From a virus, in the IMG/VR virus record IMGVR_UViG_3300023223_000319, positions 1 through 54,040 of that record: DNA of 54,040 bases. The stretch is one strand, 5' to 3'. A model generated the notes under the pieces. That model did not search any database. It was not told the origin of the DNA and saw nothing but the letters and a program-made list of their open reading frames with translations. A program made the position numbers and the translations under genes. Every line of letters starts with the position of its first letter. The stretch's first letter is position 1. Shown here piece after piece: positions 2,090 to 52,063 of this stretch.

Positions 2090-2968
2090 ATGCCTATAAC
2101 GCCATCAGATTATGAGCATTTTTCACAGATAAACGCATCTAAAGGCGTGGCGAGTTTTTACGCGCTGGATCAAGCAGGGGCTAACGTCGATTTATTTGGC
2201 TTCGGGCCTGATCTGGAAATAGCAGACCCCTCGATGTGGACGGATAACCCTGAGTGGCTGACGGGTGATGGTGTTTCGGATTATGCCGGCTTTCACTCTG
2301 ATGGCTCGCCTACCCAAGAAGACCAGGCGGAGAAGATTTTTAAACTTAATAACGGGCTTCAGCTTATCGCGTTTCAGGTGGCTTACTCCTCTGCACCAGT
2401 CTCAGACGAGGAGTTTGTATTTTTAGGCGGGCAGGATCTGTCTGCACCTAGCAGTGCGAGAGGTGTTAAATATACTCTTGGAACTGATGGAAATGTCGAC
2501 CAAAACTCCATAGTTGACGGCGGGGGCGCTAGAAATATACCGGGATATAACGCTACTGTGCTAGGTAACGAAATGACCATTGTTTTCGTTAACGATGCCA
2601 GAAGCGGAATAACAGAAAATGGAACTGGGAAGGCTACGGCGTACTCAGGGCCTAATAGCAACGGGCTGGACCTAGTTAGCGCAAACGGAATATCTAAAGT
2701 ATTCGCTAATTATTATGGCCAGAACGATTTTGGAAATATTCTCGGCTTCCCTTCTGGCATGTCCTCTGGCGTAGGCGTTGGTATCGGAGCGAGGTGGAAT
2801 AACTTTGACTCTACGTGGGATGATAATACCCCCTTTCAGATAAGGCGGCTTCTGGTCATGAACTTTAAGAAGGTTGATCCGCGACTTTTAGGCGAGATAG
2901 CTTTCGACCTGCTATATAGCGGCGGACTTCCTGGCGCGTCTGTTTATCGAGGCATTCTCAATGCTTAG
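2090..2968 (+). CDS. putative virion surface protein, 292 aa
   Basis: First of four overlapping or closely spaced large genes (2090-6020). The sequence is Gly/Asn/Ser-rich with many beta-prone stretches and no cysteines, typical of phage capsid-surface or tail-adhesin proteins; the Phe-Lys-Leu-Asn-Asn-Gly...Phe-Val-Phe-Leu-Gly-Gly pattern is reminiscent of lectin-like (LamG) jelly rolls. This is compositional inference only. It overlaps the next gene by eight bases, so the two are translated together. Confidence 0.6.
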   Translation: MPITPSDYEHFSQINASKGVASFYALDQAGANVDLFGFGPDLEIADPSMWTDNPEWLTGDGVSDYAGFHSDGSPTQEDQAEKIFKLNNGLQLIAFQVAYSSAPVSDEEFVFLGGQDLSAPSSARGVKYTLGTDGNVDQNSIVDGGGARNIPGYNATVLGNEMTIVFVNDARSGITENGTGKATAYSGPNSNGLDLVSANGISKVFANYYGQNDFGNILGFPSGMSSGVGVGIGARWNNFDSTWDDNTPFQIRRLLVMNFKKVDPRLLGEIAFDLLYSGGLPGASVYRGILNA

Positions 2969-4787
2969 AGTACCAGGCATAGGGCGGCCGACCGCTAATA
3001 GTATTCGCGTTCTAGTTGCAACAACCCGTGATTCAGCGGTTGACCCTATCAGCGCGGTAGCCTCTGCGGGCAGTGTGGCCATAACGCAGCCAGCGCAGAC
3101 TCTCGTGACAATTTCGGCTCCGCTACAGGTCGGGTTTGTTGATGTTACCGGGCTGCCGGCCCACTCCCCCCTTACCGTAACCGTCTCCCAGAATGGGGAG
3201 GACGACCAAGTTTGCACGCTAAAAACGCTGCCTGACGATGAGGTGACAGATTTTAGCTTTATTATGACCACTTGCGACTTTTTGGTCAGCAAGACAGCGG
3301 GAAATCTGTGGCGAGAACTTAATGATTTAATCGACACCGAGAATATCCTGTTTAGAGTTAACCCTGACGACTACACCTATGTCGACGGCCTGACTATGAA
3401 CAAACCCCCCTACACATCAACGGGAGTGCCTGGCACCACAAAAGACCCTGACGACTACAACCTTGCTTACGGGGTGTGGGCTGGTGTGTTTGATACGTAC
3501 TACGAGGCTCACGATGTAGAGCGTCAAGACTTTTATAAACGAGTTCCGGTACTGTCTACTGGCGGCGACCATTATGTAAAAAACGATTATCGACGGTCTA
3601 CGGACGTTCCAGAAGATTCGGTGCTATATGCCGCCGCTAAAGACGGATGGGAGAACTGGGCAGCCCCGCTTAACCCGGATCCACTAGCTGTGGGTGAGCT
3701 GTGGTTCGGGTTTACCTGTGGGCCTTGCCGGTTCGTATTTAGCGAAATGGAAAACACGTGTATACCCCCCGTTGCCAGCGAGACGGACAAGCCTTGCTAC
3801 ACCCAGCCCCAGATTGACGACTGGTTTAACTACTGGGATACGGATCCTGTGCAGTTTAATTTTCTTTGCTCGGAGCGAATGACAGACCAGACGCAGCAGG
3901 GATGGAGACAGCTGCACCAGGACGAGGCGGACGGGTGGAAGGCGTCAATGGAAGCTAACAACAACCTAAACGGTGTTAACGGGAATCTGACCGCCTTGAC
4001 CGGCGACAGGCATTGCCAGATGGTCATACAGTACGACTCATTTGCAGAAATGGTGCCGTCACAGTGCGCGGGTCAAGATTCGGTGGGCGCAGAGCTTTAC
4101 GGTATAAACTGGGCCTGGGGTGGCGTGCTAAAGCATGCGATAGTGACCCGAGACGAGATAGGTGACAGGCCAGAAGAGGGGTTTATTTTATTCAGGGTAA
4201 AGGCGAGCGCCGCCACGCCTTTCCTAGAAATGATTCACTATCAGACCATGAATGGCACGCTACAACAGACTTACGGCCCCTCTAGGCTTAATGCTGGCGC
4301 AGAGGACAATCAGTGGGTGCTGCCAGACAATAGCGACAGGATAGGGCGCGAGGTACAGAATTCAGGTGCTATAGGCCAGAAGGACCGATTTGTAATGCCG
4401 GGCGAGACTATCGCTCAAGGATCGAGGGATGATTACCTGGGATTCTACATATTCCAAGGTGACAACAACAGTTATCTAACGACTCTGAATTGCCATGTAG
4501 GCGCTGTATCTGAGACGGTACAGGCCAGATTCAAACTAACACTATTCGAGTATGACTTTGGCGGCACTCAGCTACCAACAAAGGTTGTCGGAGAGACAGA
4601 ATTCCAGAGGCTACCGGTTAAAGTCGGGGCGGGCGCCAGACAACTCCACAAGCTGCCAATAGTCGGTGGCGAGTTGAGGCTAGGCCCGAGATACTACATT
4701 ATAGGCATAAGTGTGGAGGACGCCCCCGTCTCCGTCTCAGATGATACAATCGGCGTCGTAGGACGAGAGGGGGCGATTAGTGTCTGA
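2961..4787 (+). CDS. PhoD-like phosphatase-fold protein, probably virion-associated (608 aa)
   Basis: The order of motifs resembles PhoD-type metallophosphatases: an N-terminal Ig-like region (Leu-Thr-Val-Thr-Val, residues about 50-85), a Thr-Thr-Cys-Asp segment near residue 100, Asn-Pro-Asp-Asp-Tyr-Thr-Tyr-Val-Asp-Gly near 130 where PhoD has Gly-Asp-x-Ile-Tyr-x-Asp, a Gly-Gly-Asp-His-Tyr-x-x-Asn-Asp segment near 195 where PhoD has Asp-Asp-His-Asp, and Leu-Thr-Gly-Asp-Arg-His near 350 matching the Ser-Gly-Asp-Arg-His end motif. Several metal-binding positions are changed, so it may be inactive or altered. Residues beyond about 450 form another beta-rich domain. It overlaps both neighbours, as expected for a multi-protein surface structure. 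Fold moderately supported; activity unknown. Confidence 0.5.
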   Translation: MLRVPGIGRPTANSIRVLVATTRDSAVDPISAVASAGSVAITQPAQTLVTISAPLQVGFVDVTGLPAHSPLTVTVSQNGEDDQVCTLKTLPDDEVTDFSFIMTTCDFLVSKTAGNLWRELNDLIDTENILFRVNPDDYTYVDGLTMNKPPYTSTGVPGTTKDPDDYNLAYGVWAGVFDTYYEAHDVERQDFYKRVPVLSTGGDHYVKNDYRRSTDVPEDSVLYAAAKDGWENWAAPLNPDPLAVGELWFGFTCGPCRFVFSEMENTCIPPVASETDKPCYTQPQIDDWFNYWDTDPVQFNFLCSERMTDQTQQGWRQLHQDEADGWKASMEANNNLNGVNGNLTALTGDRHCQMVIQYDSFAEMVPSQCAGQDSVGAELYGINWAWGGVLKHAIVTRDEIGDRPEEGFILFRVKASAATPFLEMIHYQTMNGTLQQTYGPSRLNAGAEDNQWVLPDNSDRIGREVQNSGAIGQKDRFVMPGETIAQGSRDDYLGFYIFQGDNNSYLTTLNCHVGAVSETVQARFKLTLFEYDFGGTQLPTKVVGETEFQRLPVKVGAGARQLHKLPIVGGELRLGPRYYIIGISVEDAPVSVSDDTIGVVGREGAISV

Positions 4788-7587: not shown

Positions 7588-9250
7588 AAAGCTGGACGAA
7601 CTAGAGCCCCAGATAATGGCTAGTGTTGGAATGCTGGAGAAGTCTGTCTATGGTGTTGTTGACCGGGTTGATCGCATTGATGGCGAGCTAATCCCGCATT
7701 TTATCCGACGATGGAAAGGCACTATAGGCGACATGGCCCCAACGGAAGAAGAGCCAACCATCTATATTATTGAAAAGCTCGAGCCTTTAATCCTAAAACA
7801 CAAGAAATACAAAGGCATGTGGGGAGGAAGAGGGGCCACAAAATCAATAATGGCCATGGACACGATGGCTGGCGAAGTTAATTCATGCGGATCAAAGGTA
7901 TATGCCCTAAGAGAGCACATGAAATCGCTTAAGGAGTCGATTTATGCAGGGATGGAGGGCCGGATAAGAGCTCTTGGATTCGCCGGGTTTAGATCGGTCA
8001 GAAGCCAGAGCGAGATAAGGCACAAAACAGGAGGCCAGATAACGTTCGGCGGCCTCGTTAATGTCGAAGATATGAAGAGCTTGTTTATGTACAAGTTCTT
8101 TCTGATGGAGGAGGCCAGAGACACCAGTCAGGACGCTATCGATATATTAGGCCCAACACTTCGCGGCGTGCCAGGCAGTGAACTTTGGTGGGTTTGGAAC
8201 ACCGGAGCATCAAGCGACGCCATGAGTCAGGAATTTATCGTTCCTTATCAGGCTGATTACGACCGGCAGGGCTATTATGAGGACGACTATCATTATTTAA
8301 TCAAGGTCGGCTATCAAGATAACCCATGGTTTATGCATGATGAGTCTTTGAGCGAGGAGTTGGCTAAAGACTTTGAGAAGGTTTCAGACGGCAGGATGAG
8401 TCAGGCAAGATTTAACCATATATGGAATGGCGGATTTAAAGATGATATCGAGGATTCTGTGATTAGCGAAGAGATGTTCGATGCATGCATAGATGCCCAC
8501 ATTAAACTGGGTTTCGAGCCAAAAGGCGCTATCGTCGCCGGGCATGACCCTTCAGACGTTGGAAATGATGCAAAGGGCTTCTGTGTTCGGCAGGGCGTTG
8601 TATTTACAAGCATGGAAGAACTTGATGGCGAGAACGCTAATAGGGCTTTTGATATAGCATGCAAAAAGGCTAAAGATATCAATGCCGACGTGTTTGGGTG
8701 GGATTGTGACGGGATGGGCGCCCTGCTTAGAGATCAGGCTTCGGCCAACTTTGCAGGAACCAAGATTGAGTCGTTTATGTACAAAGGCAGTGAGGGCGTT
8801 CATGACCCAGAAGACATATTTGAGGAAAGCGACAATTACAACATGAAAGGCGAGAAAAAGAACAAGGACGTGTTTAAGAATAAGAAGGCTCAAAATATAG
8901 TCTCATTTGCCGAAAGGTGCAGAAAGACACACGAGGCGGTATCAGCGTTGGCCAAGGGAAAGATGAAATACTATGACCCTGATGAATTAATTAGCTTTTC
9001 TAGTGAGGGCATTTCACTTAAAACAATGTCAAAATTCAGGGCCGAGTGCTGCAAGATACCGCTAAAGCCATCTGATATGATTTGTTTTTACTCTAAAGAA
9101 GAGTTAAGGCGAGGCATTATGATTAAAGGTAAGCGGATAATCATACCCTCCCCCAACCTATTCGACAGCGCTTCGCTTTCATTTGACAAGTCAAGTATAA
9201 TTATCAAGGTCAAGAAGGTTCAGCTAAACTTCGACTCAATAGGCCGATAA
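7571..9250 (+). CDS. terminase large subunit
   Basis: 559 aa, the DNA-packaging motor and headful or site-specific nuclease. The N-terminal ATPase has a Walker A-like Gly-Gly-Arg-Gly-Ala-Thr-Lys-Ser at about residues 85-92 and a Walker B-like Phe-Phe-Leu-Met-Glu-Glu-Ala-Arg around 180, both typical of PBSX/P22-type terminases. The C-terminal RNase-H-like nuclease shows Ala-Gly-His-Asp-Pro-Ser-Asp near residue 320 and Phe-Gly-Trp-Asp-Cys-Asp-Gly-Met-Gly near 375 as candidate metal-binding acidic motifs. The start overlaps the small-subunit gene, indicating coupled translation. Confidence 0.92.
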   Translation: MGSLARKLDELEPQIMASVGMLEKSVYGVVDRVDRIDGELIPHFIRRWKGTIGDMAPTEEEPTIYIIEKLEPLILKHKKYKGMWGGRGATKSIMAMDTMAGEVNSCGSKVYALREHMKSLKESIYAGMEGRIRALGFAGFRSVRSQSEIRHKTGGQITFGGLVNVEDMKSLFMYKFFLMEEARDTSQDAIDILGPTLRGVPGSELWWVWNTGASSDAMSQEFIVPYQADYDRQGYYEDDYHYLIKVGYQDNPWFMHDESLSEELAKDFEKVSDGRMSQARFNHIWNGGFKDDIEDSVISEEMFDACIDAHIKLGFEPKGAIVAGHDPSDVGNDAKGFCVRQGVVFTSMEELDGENANRAFDIACKKAKDINADVFGWDCDGMGALLRDQASANFAGTKIESFMYKGSEGVHDPEDIFEESDNYNMKGEKKNKDVFKNKKAQNIVSFAERCRKTHEAVSALAKGKMKYYDPDELISFSSEGISLKTMSKFRAECCKIPLKPSDMICFYSKEELRRGIMIKGKRIIIPSPNLFDSASLSFDKSSIIIKVKKVQLNFDSIGR

Positions 9251-9259
9251 CACGTTTAA

Positions 9260-9335
9260 TGCTACAATCAGCACCGGCTAGGGCATGCAACCCGAAAAGC
9301 GGTAACACCGACCGCCTGCCAATCCTAATTCGGTG
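9260..9335 (+). promoter_or_regulatory. extended -10 promoter and structured 5' leader of portal
   Basis: TGC-TACAAT at 9260-9268 is an extended -10 box. Four bases on, a long imperfect stem begins: CACCG (9272-9276) with CGGTG (9331-9335), TAGG (9279-9282) with CCTA (9324-9327), GCA/TGC (9283-9285 with 9317-9319), and an inner GCGGT/ACCGC hairpin (9299-9303 with 9311-9315). No T-run follows, so it is not a terminator. It probably acts as a translational or stability element for portal, whose ATG at 9375 has no clear Shine-Dalgarno. Pairing is seen; function is inferred. Confidence 0.5.
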
Positions 9336-9374
9336 ATTATCTTGGTGAGATAGTGGTGATTATGATTATTTAAT

Positions 9375-15692: not shown

Positions 15693-16922
15693 ATGAGCAA
15701 GTATAAATATATATTTGACGATACGGCATCCAGCCCAATCAAGCATTGGACTAAAGGCGTGGAGCTAGACGATAAAGCAAGAGACCAGCTATACAATATT
15801 GCCTCGATGCCATTCATCCACAAGCATGTTGCAGTGATGCCTGATGTTCACTGGGGCAACGGGGCTACCATAGGATCAGTTATAGCCACCAAGGGAGCCA
15901 TTATACCGGCTGCGGTAGGCGTTGATATTGGCTGCGGAATGATGGCGCTTAAAACGTCACTAAAGGCCACTGACCTGCCTGATAACCTTCACGCTATACG
16001 CAGCGCCATAGAGGCAGAAATCCCCCATGGGCGCACTGATAACGGCGGTAAGAATGACAAAGGCGGATGGGGTGATGTAATGCCATCGGATAACGCCGAT
16101 TCATGGCTAAGGCTTTCTGTTGGTTATGAAGCTATATTGGCAAAGCACCCTAAAGCGAAGTCATTCAATAACGCATCTCACCTAGGAACGCTCGGAACTG
16201 GCAACCACTTCATTGAATTATGCCTTGATGAAAATGACGATGTTTGGGTAATGCTGCATTCTGGTTCTCGTGGAGCCGGCAACCGTATTGGCATGTATTT
16301 CATTGAGAAAGCGAAAAAGGAGATGGAGCGATATTATATTGATAAGTATCTGCCGGATCGTGAGCTTGCCTATTTAGTTGAGCATTCGGAGATTTTCGAT
16401 GATTACGTTTCTGCGGTTGCGTGGGCCCAGGATTACGCGCTTGAAAACAGAAAGCTTATGATGGCTCAAGTTTTAGGTGCGATGAAGCGACACTTAAAGC
16501 CATTCACAATTGAAGATGAGGCGATTAACTGCCATCACAACTACATAGATAGAGAGAATCATTTCGGCTCTAATGTGTGGGTGACTCGCAAAGGTGCTGT
16601 TCGCGCCAGAGAGAAAGATTTAGGGATTATTCCAGGCTCCATGGGCACCGGGTCATTCATTGTTCGCGGACTAGGCAACAAAGACTCATTCTGTAGCTGC
16701 TCTCATGGAGCTGGCCGCGTAATGTCTAGAGGTGAGGCAAAGAGAAAGATAACGCTAGAGCAGCACGAAAAAGCCATGACAGGAATCGAGGCGAGACTTG
16801 ATGCCGGCGTCATTGATGAAAGTCCTGCGGCCTATAAAGACATTGGCGCGGTAATGGATGCTCAGAGTGACTTAGTTGAAATTGTTTATCGTCTTCGTCA
16901 AGTGATAAATGTTAAAGGCTAG
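15693..16922 (+). CDS. rtcB: RtcB-type RNA ligase
   Basis: 409 aa, the length of bacterial RtcB. RtcB joins 2',3'-cyclic-phosphate or 3'-phosphate RNA ends to 5'-OH ends using GTP and Mn2+. Visible motifs: Met-Pro-Asp-Val-His-Trp-Gly-Asn-Gly-Ala-Thr-Ile-Gly (metal His), Gly-Val-Asp-Ile-Gly-Cys-Gly-Met, Gly-Thr-Leu-Gly-Thr-Gly-Asn-His-Phe, His-Ser-Gly-Ser-Arg-Gly, Asn-Cys-His-His-Asn-Tyr, Ile-Pro-Gly-Ser-Met-Gly and Cys-Ser-His-Gly-Ala-Gly-Arg with the guanylated His. All key residues look intact, so it should be active. Next to a SpoU methylase, RlaP-type transferase and tRNA-like RNA, it probably reseals tRNA cut by host anticodon nucleases; that substrate is inferred. Confidence 0.95.
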   Translation: MSKYKYIFDDTASSPIKHWTKGVELDDKARDQLYNIASMPFIHKHVAVMPDVHWGNGATIGSVIATKGAIIPAAVGVDIGCGMMALKTSLKATDLPDNLHAIRSAIEAEIPHGRTDNGGKNDKGGWGDVMPSDNADSWLRLSVGYEAILAKHPKAKSFNNASHLGTLGTGNHFIELCLDENDDVWVMLHSGSRGAGNRIGMYFIEKAKKEMERYYIDKYLPDRELAYLVEHSEIFDDYVSAVAWAQDYALENRKLMMAQVLGAMKRHLKPFTIEDEAINCHHNYIDRENHFGSNVWVTRKGAVRAREKDLGIIPGSMGTGSFIVRGLGNKDSFCSCSHGAGRVMSRGEAKRKITLEQHEKAMTGIEARLDAGVIDESPAAYKDIGAVMDAQSDLVEIVYRLRQVINVKG

Positions 16923-49453: not shown

Positions 49454-49780
49454 CTAAATAGGCGGCATGTCAGCCGGCCCGTCTTCTTTCACGATAAGGT
49501 ATGTCTTTTTGAATATGTCGGGCTTGCAGGGGTAAAACATCCTGTTCTTATCGAAAGGCTCTTTTATGATCATGTCGCCGATATTTGCAAGCATGTCACC
49601 TTCGCTTGTTTTTATAACCAAGCCGCCTTCACCCTTGCTATGATCAATATAGAAGTCTCTGCCAGTTGCGCCAATATATTCATTGCTGCCACCACCAAGA
49701 AACTCAAACATCCCCCGATGATTCTTCCCGTCCCATTCCATGAAATCAATTCTTACCGGTCGCTTAACGGCACTTGGCAT
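49454..49780 (-). CDS. common phage protein of unknown role (108 aa)
   Basis: Pattern Lys-Arg-Pro-Val-Arg-Ile-Asp-Phe-Met-Glu-Trp-Asp-Gly, then Ile-Lys-Thr-Ser-Glu-Gly-Asp-Met-Leu-Ala, Gly-Asp-Met-Ile-Ile-Lys and Phe-Tyr-Pro-Cys-Lys-Pro-Asp-Ile-Phe-Lys-Lys-Thr-Tyr matches a family widespread in phages. Function unknown. Confidence 0.72.
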   Translation of the reverse strand: MPSAVKRPVRIDFMEWDGKNHRGMFEFLGGGSNEYIGATGRDFYIDHSKGEGGLVIKTSEGDMLANIGDMIIKEPFDKNRMFYPCKPDIFKKTYLIVKEDGPADMPPI

Positions 49781-50512: not shown

Positions 50513-50540
50513 TTGTGCTATTACCATACTGCTATATAAT
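50513..50540 (+). promoter_or_regulatory. promoter of the RNA locus
   Basis: TTGTGC (50513-50518), 16 bases, TATAAT (50535-50540). The perfect -10 and TTG of the -35 make it one of the strongest promoters in the window. Start near 50547 places the pseudoknot RNA at the 5' end. Confidence 0.65.
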
Positions 50541-50546
50541 GGGTGG

Positions 50547-50684
50547 TGTAGTTAGGCGTGTGGAAGCGCTTGGATTGGTAGAGAGATAGGGTCAATAAGT
50601 ACAGGTTTTAGAGAGCGCGGGAAATACTTCCACGTATCTCTTTACCAACCCCATCTCTAGGGTCTGTATTTATTGGCCTTTTTT
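50547..50684 (+). ncRNA. 138-nt pseudoknotted RNA with U6 terminator
   Basis: Helices: P1 GTGGAAG/CTTCCAC (50560-50566 with 50627-50633); P2 CGCT/AGCG (50567-50570 with 50614-50617); A, 14 bp with one G-U (50575-50588 with 50635-50648); B, 15 bp with two G-U (50590-50604 with 50664-50678), then six T. A crosses P1/P2, B crosses both A and P1/P2, so it can be a pseudoknot or a switch between states. The layout P1-P2-B-P2'-P1'-B'-U6 equals that of the NAD+ leader at 16988-17085. It ends five bases before tRNA-Pro. Role unknown; it might control read-through into the tRNA and ornate RNA. Confidence 0.7.
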
Positions 50685-50689
50685 GTTTT

Positions 50690-50767
50690 CTGTGTGTAGC
50701 TCAGCTTGGTTAGAGTGCTCGGTTTGGAACTGAGGGGTCGTAGGTTCGAATCCTACCACACAGACCA
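50690..50767 (+). tRNA. tRNA-Pro (UGG)
   Basis: Complete cloverleaf with encoded CCA: acceptor CTGTGTG/CACACAG with the C1-G72 typical of bacterial tRNA-Pro, D-stem GCTC/GAGT, anticodon stem CTCGG/CTGAG with anticodon TGG at 50725-50727, T-stem GTAGG/CCTAC with loop TTCGAAT, A73 and CCA at 50765-50767. Reads CCN codons. Phages often carry tRNAs to replace host tRNAs cut during defence. Confidence 0.95.
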
Positions 50768-50772
50768 CTTTT

Positions 50773-50849
50773 GCTCCCTTAGCCCAATTGGCAGAGGCGC
50801 TGGATTTAGATTCCAGAGGTTCTAGGTTCGACTCCTAGAGGGAGTACCA
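50773..50849 (+). tRNA. tRNA with UAG anticodon (Leu by codon, class-I shape)
   Basis: Cloverleaf with encoded CCA: acceptor GCTCCCT/AGGGAGT (first pair G-U), D-stem GCC/GGC, anticodon stem CTGGA/TCCAG with TAG at 50807-50809, variable region of only five bases (50817-50821), T-stem CTAGG/CCTAG. UAG should read CUA leucine codons, but bacterial tRNA-Leu needs a long variable arm. This short-arm tRNA may be charged poorly, charged by another synthetase or carry another amino acid. G1-U72 is also unusual. Confidence 0.85.
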
Positions 50850-51480
50850 TTTCAAGACCATAGTCTGTATTGATAAGAGTAAAGGGAATGTTGTTCCGGA
50901 ATTAGCTACCGGATTCCTGTTGGTGGTGATTGAGTCTCTATTACCTTGGGCAAACTAGCGTAGCCTGGGCAGATGACAGCTAGACACCTTAGCCAGCACT
51001 CTTACCAATACAGATTATACCTCCATAATGAGCCTGTATATGTGGTGAGCATGCGGAACCTAGAGTTAATAAACTGACTCGAGTTAATAGACTGACTTCA
51101 ATGGAACCAATGGCTCCCTTCATATACAGGTTCACCGCCTACTGCCAGGTTCATGGCATCCAGCAAATTGTCACCGGTCGATCCGGGTAATCAAAGCAAT
51201 TAGCAATACTAGATTCGATCAGCACTAGCGGCAGCCAGGAAACGGGCCAAGCAAAGCCATCTTCCCTCTACGATAAGATGCGCGGATTAAGAGGGGTGCA
51301 GGTACAGATATCCTATATAGCTCAGGATCGTGCCTTAAACAGCGATTACGTGAATATGAATACCTGAGTAGCTTTAAGCGTAAATCTCCTATGTAAGCCT
51401 TGTTCAACGGCTCTAAACTTGGCTAGTTCATCCGGCAAGATGTAAAAAGGTTCGCTGATAAGTGATTGATGATAGCCAGT
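50850..51480 (+). ncRNA. large ornate structured RNA region (GOLLD/ROOL-like by context)
   Basis: No protein-coding frame is convincing in these 630 bases. Helices: 21 positions with one A-C mismatch and one G-U (50860-50880 with 50998-51018); inside it GGAAT/ATTCC enclosing CCGG/CCGG, GGTGAT/ATTACC, CTAGC/GCTAG; 10 bp perfect (51033-51042 with 51121-51130) enclosing a 17-base tandem repeat (51063-51079, 51081-51097); TGCCA/TGGCA (51143-51158); AATTG/CAATT (51166-51170 with 51197-51201) around CCGG/CCGG; TCCCTCT/AGAGGGG type stem (51264-51269 with 51290-51295); ATCCT/AGGAT (51310-51328); CTTAAA/TTTAAG (51334-51378); a 9-bp plus bulge stem (51416-51425 with 51473-51481). It follows two tRNAs directly, so tRNA processing would free its 5' end at 50850. 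Homology to GOLLD or ROOL is not proven. Confidence 0.6.
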
Positions 51481-51529
51481 TATAATGAAGTGTACGGAAG
51501 TAGTTAGGTTGATGAGTAGTTCACCAACC
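51481..51529 (+). promoter_or_regulatory. -10 box and hairpin leader of the 51559 operon
   Basis: TATAAT at 51481-51486, without a good -35. GTAGTTAGG follows at 51500-51508, as it does after the -10 at 50535 (GTAGTTAGG at 50548-50556). A hairpin GGTTG-TGA/TCA-CAACC (51507-51529) comes next. The first T of this -10 also pairs in the last helix of the ornate RNA. Confidence 0.45.
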
Positions 51530-51558
51530 CCTCTTAATTGACGATATGGGAAAATATT

Positions 51559-51814: not shown

Positions 51815-52063
51815 ATGAATGAAGATTCAGGAGTTCAACGAAAGCGATCTAAGTCGGCTGTCGTATGGCCCAACAGCTTAAAGCCATGCCCATTGTGCGG
51901 CGACAAAGACGAATTTATTTCAACATTTCATAACGGATTAGATTTATGGAGCGTTTCGTGCTGTAGGTGCGGACTACATTTAGAGATACCGGGAGGCGGG
52001 TTTTTTACTGAAAGCGAGGCTGTTATCGCCTGGAATACTCGCACCCCATCCACCAGCATATAA
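51815..52063 (+). CDS. Lar-like zinc-ribbon protein (82 aa)
   Basis: Pattern Leu-Lys-Pro-Cys-Pro-Leu-Cys-Gly (residues about 22-29), Trp-Ser-Val-Ser-Cys-Cys-Arg-Cys-Gly-Leu and the closing Ser-Glu-Ala-Val-Ile-Ala-Trp-Asn-Thr-Arg matches Lar-type restriction-alleviation proteins. Lar dampens host type I restriction; activity here is inferred. Same leader motif as the preceding gene. Confidence 0.78.
   Translation: MNEDSGVQRKRSKSAVVWPNSLKPCPLCGDKDEFISTFHNGLDLWSVSCCRCGLHLEIPGGGFFTESEAVIAWNTRTPSTSI

Follow-up and report, generated by a model that had tools for sequence, protein, structure and literature searches.

The window analysed here, a stretch of virus DNA of 54,040 nucleotides, comprises positions 1–54,040 of the IMG/VR record IMGVR_UViG_3300023223_000319. 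Within it, positions 50513–51538 are predicted from the sequence to be the locus of a large structured, modular and untranslated RNA with two tRNAs inside. The features of the locus are:

50513–50540, plus strand: sigma70-type promoter, with TTGTGC (−35, at 50513), 16 nt and TATAAT (50535–50540)
50555–50684, plus strand: leader RNA of about 130 nt, with 5′ hairpin H1, helices A, B and C, and a U6 end
50558–50566, plus strand: A5, in the loop of the 5′ hairpin H1 (stem GGCG/CGC); its partner is A3, at 50627–50635
50575–50587, plus strand: B5, 13 bp with B3 at 50636–50648
50588–50614, plus strand: C5, the 5′ arm of a 27-bp terminator-like hairpin
50627–50648, plus strand: A3 and B3, inside the 39-nt apical loop of hairpin C
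50654–50684, plus strand: C3, the 3′ arm of hairpin C, and the U6 run
50690–50767, plus strand: tRNA-Pro(UGG), CCA encoded, in the slot directly after the leader
50773–50849, plus strand: tRNA with a UAG anticodon (called as Leu), class-I shape, 5-nt variable loop, CCA encoded
50862–51016, plus strand: module 1, CTGTATTGATAAGAGTAAAG ... CAGCACTCTTACCAATACAG, with a variable interior
51030–51133, plus strand: module 2, CCTGTATATGTGGTG ... CCCTTCATATACAGG, with a variable interior that contains a 17/18-nt tandem repeat
51134–51285, plus strand: joining segment, weakly conserved
51286–51538, plus strand: 3′ domain of type I, with closing helix ATTAAGAGGGG/CCCCTCTTAAT and core CCGGCAAG..AAA..CGCTGATAAG at 51429–51462

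A first-pass annotation had described a locus of RNA structure around two tRNAs at this position, and folding, tRNA and frame checks confirmed that observation; the end it proposed, at 51481, was not borne out, the RNA extending to about 51538. The strong −10 box it placed before the locus is the TATAAT listed above, in a divergent intergenic space. A perfect TATAAT lies no more than 60 nt upstream, mostly 5–14 nt, of 20 of 30 leaders, and the mean promoter score of the leaders is 12.05 versus 6.58 in shuffles. The annotation also saw no good protein frame. The longest stop-free frame of the locus spans 65 codons, and a search of the homologues for conserved protein frames across the region found none. 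The stronger protein-level matches coincided with tRNAs or with the leader, spread over several frames and both strands, as is expected from DNA similarity.

The three helices of the leader are interleaved in the order A5 B5 C5 A3 B3 C3, forming a pseudoknot. With a descriptor of three interleaved helices, the window leader scored 105 against a shuffle maximum of 52, and its fold was better than that of shuffles (z = −3.9). The pseudoknotted RNA with a U6 end, previously put at 138 nt, is thus upheld at about 130 nt, with its U6 run ending at 50684.

Homologues were found at about 30 loci, among them those of at least 15 Vibrio and Pseudoalteromonas phages in culture, and unannotated relatives occur in many uncultured phages. 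The search started from terL-related contigs, where L028 was recognized by reading an ORF-free stretch and L053 by the leader descriptor (scores 70 and 92, respectively). Scanning with the module 1 core pattern retrieved L113/L118, L120, L124, L125, L126, L130 and L131, and the module 2 core pattern retrieved L233, L235, L237, L241, L242, L243, L245, L249, L250, L251, L256, L257, L258, L260 and L262. Searches with sequences from these loci led to the cultured phages: the Vibrio phages 1.110.O, 1.240.O, 1.242.O, 1.275.O, Seahorse, BT-1011, vB_VaM_H2, NF, phiV208, 1.122.A, vB_VnaS-L3, 1.085.O, 1.074.O and 1.003.O, and the Pseudoalteromonas phage HS5. In the cultured phages, the region is unannotated except for tRNAs, and the leader carries no annotated feature in the records inspected. 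A partial literature search found no earlier description of this RNA. When the window RNA was compared with phages by BLAST, the tRNAs were matched, among the matches listed. Matches to the pattern TATACAGGTTCACCGC were isolated and short and were taken as chance, and the eight matches in a scan of genome contigs are about the number that chance predicts.

Most of the phages related by terL gave no sign of the RNA. The window terL matches 6 of 19 homologue records, four of them at 30–40% identity, and the RNA is therefore distributed across distinct lineages of phages.

The leader architecture is common to 31 loci, in which the fold is kept and the sequence is not. Across the class, hairpin C is 20–30 bp long, with an apical loop of about 40 nt and a U5–8 end; of 31 leaders comparable in length, 29 form at least 20 pairs, whereas those of L242 and HS5 give 13. 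Across 20 leaders, with 20 pairs of hairpin C examined, 95% of the cells were paired and 144 showed two-sided changes, compared with a shuffle maximum of 64. Helices A and B were examined without an alignment, by permuting the 5′ segments among the apical loops: the pairing sum of each leader's own 5′ segment and loop was 1092, and no more than 923 was reached in 5000 re-pairings. Against dinucleotide shuffles, Fisher's combined value for A and B was 7e-14, a figure that overstates independence, as the sequences are related. MAFFT misaligned the arms of the leaders, and the covariance model built from them was poor and was not used. The leader covaries above shuffles, as does module 2 (see below), which is what the first-pass annotation proposed to check in homologues.

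Two leader types can be distinguished. A3 precedes B3 in the window, L053, L028, NF, L126, L130, L131, L241 and L257, and B3 precedes A3 in L113, L233, L262, Seahorse and others. In phage BT-1011, the leader stands before a CDS without its 3′ domain, an arrangement consistent with a leader that acts separately in cis, or with a deletion of recent date. The closely related phages NF and phiV208 have leaders (L283, 1183–1314, and L285, about 905–1035) with a common fold in which B and C differ on both strands, and this pair amounts to a natural compensatory experiment.

Both tRNAs reported earlier, a tRNA-Pro and a class-I UAG tRNA, are real according to the tRNA calls and Rfam, where matches to RF00005 above the gathering score cover 50690–50764 and 50773–50846. 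The class-I shape assigned to the second is right, given its 5-nt variable loop; a normal tRNA-Leu is unlike this shape with its short variable loop. Another UAG-anticodon tRNA of class-I shape is found in L257 (5420–5494).

The linker between the leader and the 3′ domain is, as judged by comparison of the homologues, interchangeable, accommodating tRNAs, tRNA-like elements, module 1 and module 2. The slot just after the U-run holds a tRNA in the window, L257, Seahorse, vB_VaM_H2 and 1.085.O, where tRNAs can start 2–5 nt past the run; a tRNA-like element in NF and phiV208; and a tRNA-Und in 242E40-1. Otherwise it is occupied by another hairpin, often closed by GTGTCTG/CAGACAC. Degenerate tRNA-like elements are present in the linkers of L053, L233, L257, NF and phiV208. 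In 1.074.O, L3, 1.003.O and HS5, the 3′ domain comes next after the leader, and no tRNA-like element was seen between them.

In some phages, modules follow the linker slot, in varying order and number: L120 has two copies of module 1, in L131 module 2 comes first, and L053 retains both, their conserved cores unaltered and their outer helices changed. The roughly 630 nt of long helices seen in the first pass hold up in part. Module 1 (50860–51016) and module 2 (51024–51145) fold better than shuffles, with z-scores of −3.4 and −4.8, respectively; the whole 686-nt tail does not (z = −1.3). The 17-base tandem repeat that had been pointed out is present within module 2 (17/18 bases, GAGTTAATAAACTGACTC/GAGTTAATAGACTGACTT) and did not turn up in the homologues that were read. 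In 18 sequences of module 2, 95.7% of the cells were paired and 14 of 23 pairs showed two-sided changes. The covariation value was 0.490 versus 0.143, with none of 500 shuffles as high and slid versions reaching at most 0.077. The invariance of the module 2 core TATGTGGTG/CCCTTCATA was imposed by the search pattern, which fixed it and left the outer and inner helices free to vary.

Module 2 also occurs alone (L237, 2084–2181; L250, 321–408; L251, 3193–3292; L257, minus strand, 1308–1412), mostly just 5′ of a ribosome-binding site and a start codon (start codons in L237, L250 and L251). From its position, it looks as if it were also used as a cis element.

The case for the 3′ domain is one of sequence conservation, because thermodynamics gives no support: the last 276 nt fold no better than shuffles (z = −0.65). 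The window 3′ domain aligns with that of L130 (score 98 versus a null maximum of 45) and with that of L113 (62 versus 43). A second type of conserved 3′ domain (type II) is found in the Vibrio phages, and matches to the 3′ domain of Seahorse were found in 37 phage records, some of them partial. Homology of types I and II is without statistical support, an nhmmer search with type II finding no type I, and we regard a relation between them as suggestive. The tail of L028 (2192–2448) was considered as a tRNA-like element; that candidate was dropped, and the tail was reread by eye as a 3′ domain. The 3′ domains stop shortly before a start codon, and no terminator was seen after the 3′ domain in the window. 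No relatives were found for the 84-aa gene downstream of the RNA.

The best reading of these observations is that the locus represents a previously undescribed class of phage RNA, GOLLD-like in organization. GOLLD consists of a 5′ domain, a linker able to hold tRNAs and a 3′ domain, and assembles into 14-mer cages (PMC12286853). The RNA described here resembles it as a large phage non-coding RNA near tRNAs with a 5′ domain, linker and 3′ domain (PMC12286853), a likeness of organization only and not of sequence. We consider it somewhat more probable than its alternatives combined that this new class of large phage non-coding RNA couples a stable, tRNA-carrying scaffold or particle with conditional read-through gated by the leader. 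Against it count the BT-1011 leader that lacks its 3′ domain, the solitary copies of module 2 before start codons and the want of statistical support for homology between the two 3′ domain types. A single untranslated transcript of about 1 kb would be made from the sigma70-type promoter as a precursor, from which RNase P and RNase Z would release the true tRNAs. The leader, the modules and the 3′ domain may then fold into the stable scaffold or particle, working like GOLLD in that the 5′ and 3′ domains would flank a tRNA-capable linker. Because conserved sequence follows in nearly every member, the hairpin with the U-run must be read through at least partly. The A and B pairings are the obvious candidates for control of the read-through since their strands are made before C3. 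Hairpin C and the U-run might thus constitute a conditional terminator, controlled by A and B, that would set the output of both the tRNAs and the scaffold. The further proposition that this is a new system, with a scaffold or particle built of interchangeable tRNA, tRNA-like, module 1 and module 2 cassettes between the 3′ domain and a triple-interleaved, transcription-gating leader, is put forward tentatively.

Alternatively, the leader could be chiefly a cis-acting attenuator or a put-like antiterminator acting on a phage tRNA operon and its downstream genes, with the remainder of the RNA being processed spacer and 5′ UTR. The leader is promoter-proximal, its hairpin C always ends in U5–8 and can be followed almost at once by tRNAs, BT-1011 carries it before a CDS, and the 3′ domains end near a start codon, the one in the window having no visible terminator behind it. 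The leader also resembles HK022 put RNA and attenuators as a promoter-proximal structured leader ahead of a terminator-like sequence; the put sites are shorter and consist of two simple hairpins. Yet conservation and covariation extend to the modules and the 3′ domain, beyond what a spacer needs, and the genes downstream differ among phages, so that we regard this explanation as possible, though doubtful.

The degenerate tRNA-like elements in several linkers and the tRNA-Und after the leader in 242E40-1 might also point to a tRNA-mimic decoy that soaks up host tRNA-targeting nucleases, or to a Y-RNA-like binding partner, and some modules resemble YrlA (RF02553) in having a long stem around a tRNA-like domain. 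However, many members have no tRNA-like element. The window scored 12.5 bits with the YrlA model, on the two tRNAs, against a cut-off of 69, and the YrlA/Y-RNA reading was dropped; no Ro-like gene was recognized among the minority of window proteins compared. A decoy or Y-RNA-like function is therefore improbable.

It is likewise unlikely that the RNA is a very divergent relative of GOLLD or ROOL, as the first-pass annotation had suggested, although its size, its location in phages, its conserved 3′ part and the placing of tRNAs inside or next to the linker are similar (PMC12286853). Rfam returned only the two tRNAs at the gathering threshold and, at E ≤ 10, otherwise only hits antisense to the tRNAs; in the homologues, too, tRNA was the sole Rfam family found over the RNA. 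The GOLLD model (RF02032) had no match at E ≤ 10 in the window and none in 20 records that carry the RNA described here, and the ROOL model (RF03087) had none at E ≤ 10 in the window and matched no control genome; as neither model had a positive control, these negative results are moderate and not absolute. To our knowledge, a leader with a U-run is undescribed for either RNA. In contrast to GOLLD, the place of the 5′ domain is taken here by a 130-nt leader whose U-run is terminator-like, and modules 1 and 2 are exchangeable; moreover, the more conserved part of GOLLD is its 3′ domain (PMC12286853), whereas here the leader fold is the most widely conserved part. The likeness to ROOL is that of a large pseudoknotted phage RNA near tRNA islands, and the organization differs. 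The annotation's other proposal, a new class beside or around tRNAs, is well supported by the homologues, the covariation and the lack of conserved frames. An ordinary tRNA region with chance helices, which would agree with a 3′ domain and a whole tail that fold no better than shuffles, is contradicted by all covariation results and by the retention of the architecture in phages with unrelated or distant terL, and is very improbable.

A further large RNA of a Vibrio phage is the highly transcribed, orf-less non-coding RNA of about 800 nt in the Vibrio cholerae phage ICP1 (PMC7567579). It is like the RNA described here in being large and orf-less, and it was considered as a relative. On inspection, its region (NC_015157, 80097–81107) has no such leader, no tRNAs and an ordinary terminator, and it was rejected.

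Known classes of large phage RNA are few, GOLLD and ROOL among them. The RNA described here would add a distinct class that is modular and strongly covarying, and its leader offers a new topology for research on RNA pseudoknots and attenuation. It also suggests that stretches left empty by annotation near phage tRNA genes can encode functional RNA. Since some of the Vibrio and Pseudoalteromonas phages that carry it are in culture, its transcription, its structure and the effect of deleting it are accessible to experiment.

Several other observations were made around these loci. A terL-related phage (G012) has an ORF-free stretch of about 700 nt (L041, 9700–10450) with no Rfam match; besides a terminator and two motifs that resemble T-arms, it contains an acceptor-like helix of 10 bp (GTAGCTATCT/AGATAGCTACACCA). 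L256 contains a match to the Rfam int-alpA RNA (1702–1768, 46 bits). In L028, the promoter TTGTTTTGTAAGTTGTAGAGCGGTATAATTG occurs twice (1308–1335 and 1838–1870); one copy precedes a gene and the other precedes the leader. Genes with MUG113/T5orf172 domains adjoin the RNA in L028 (1426–1722) and L053 (3494–4036), and by eye, endonuclease-like genes seem to follow it in L126 and L241. A family of proteins of about 100 aa (WDG..HRGMFEFLGG..) is encoded near the RNA in three phages, the window copy having no Pfam match:

49454–49780, minus strand: window copy
L233, about 9060–9350: second copy
L251, about 2740–3020: third copy

Elsewhere in the window, the translation of 15693–16922 appears by eye to be an RtcB-type RNA ligase, and 51815–52063, downstream of the RNA, encodes a Lar-type restriction alleviation protein (Pfam PF14354).
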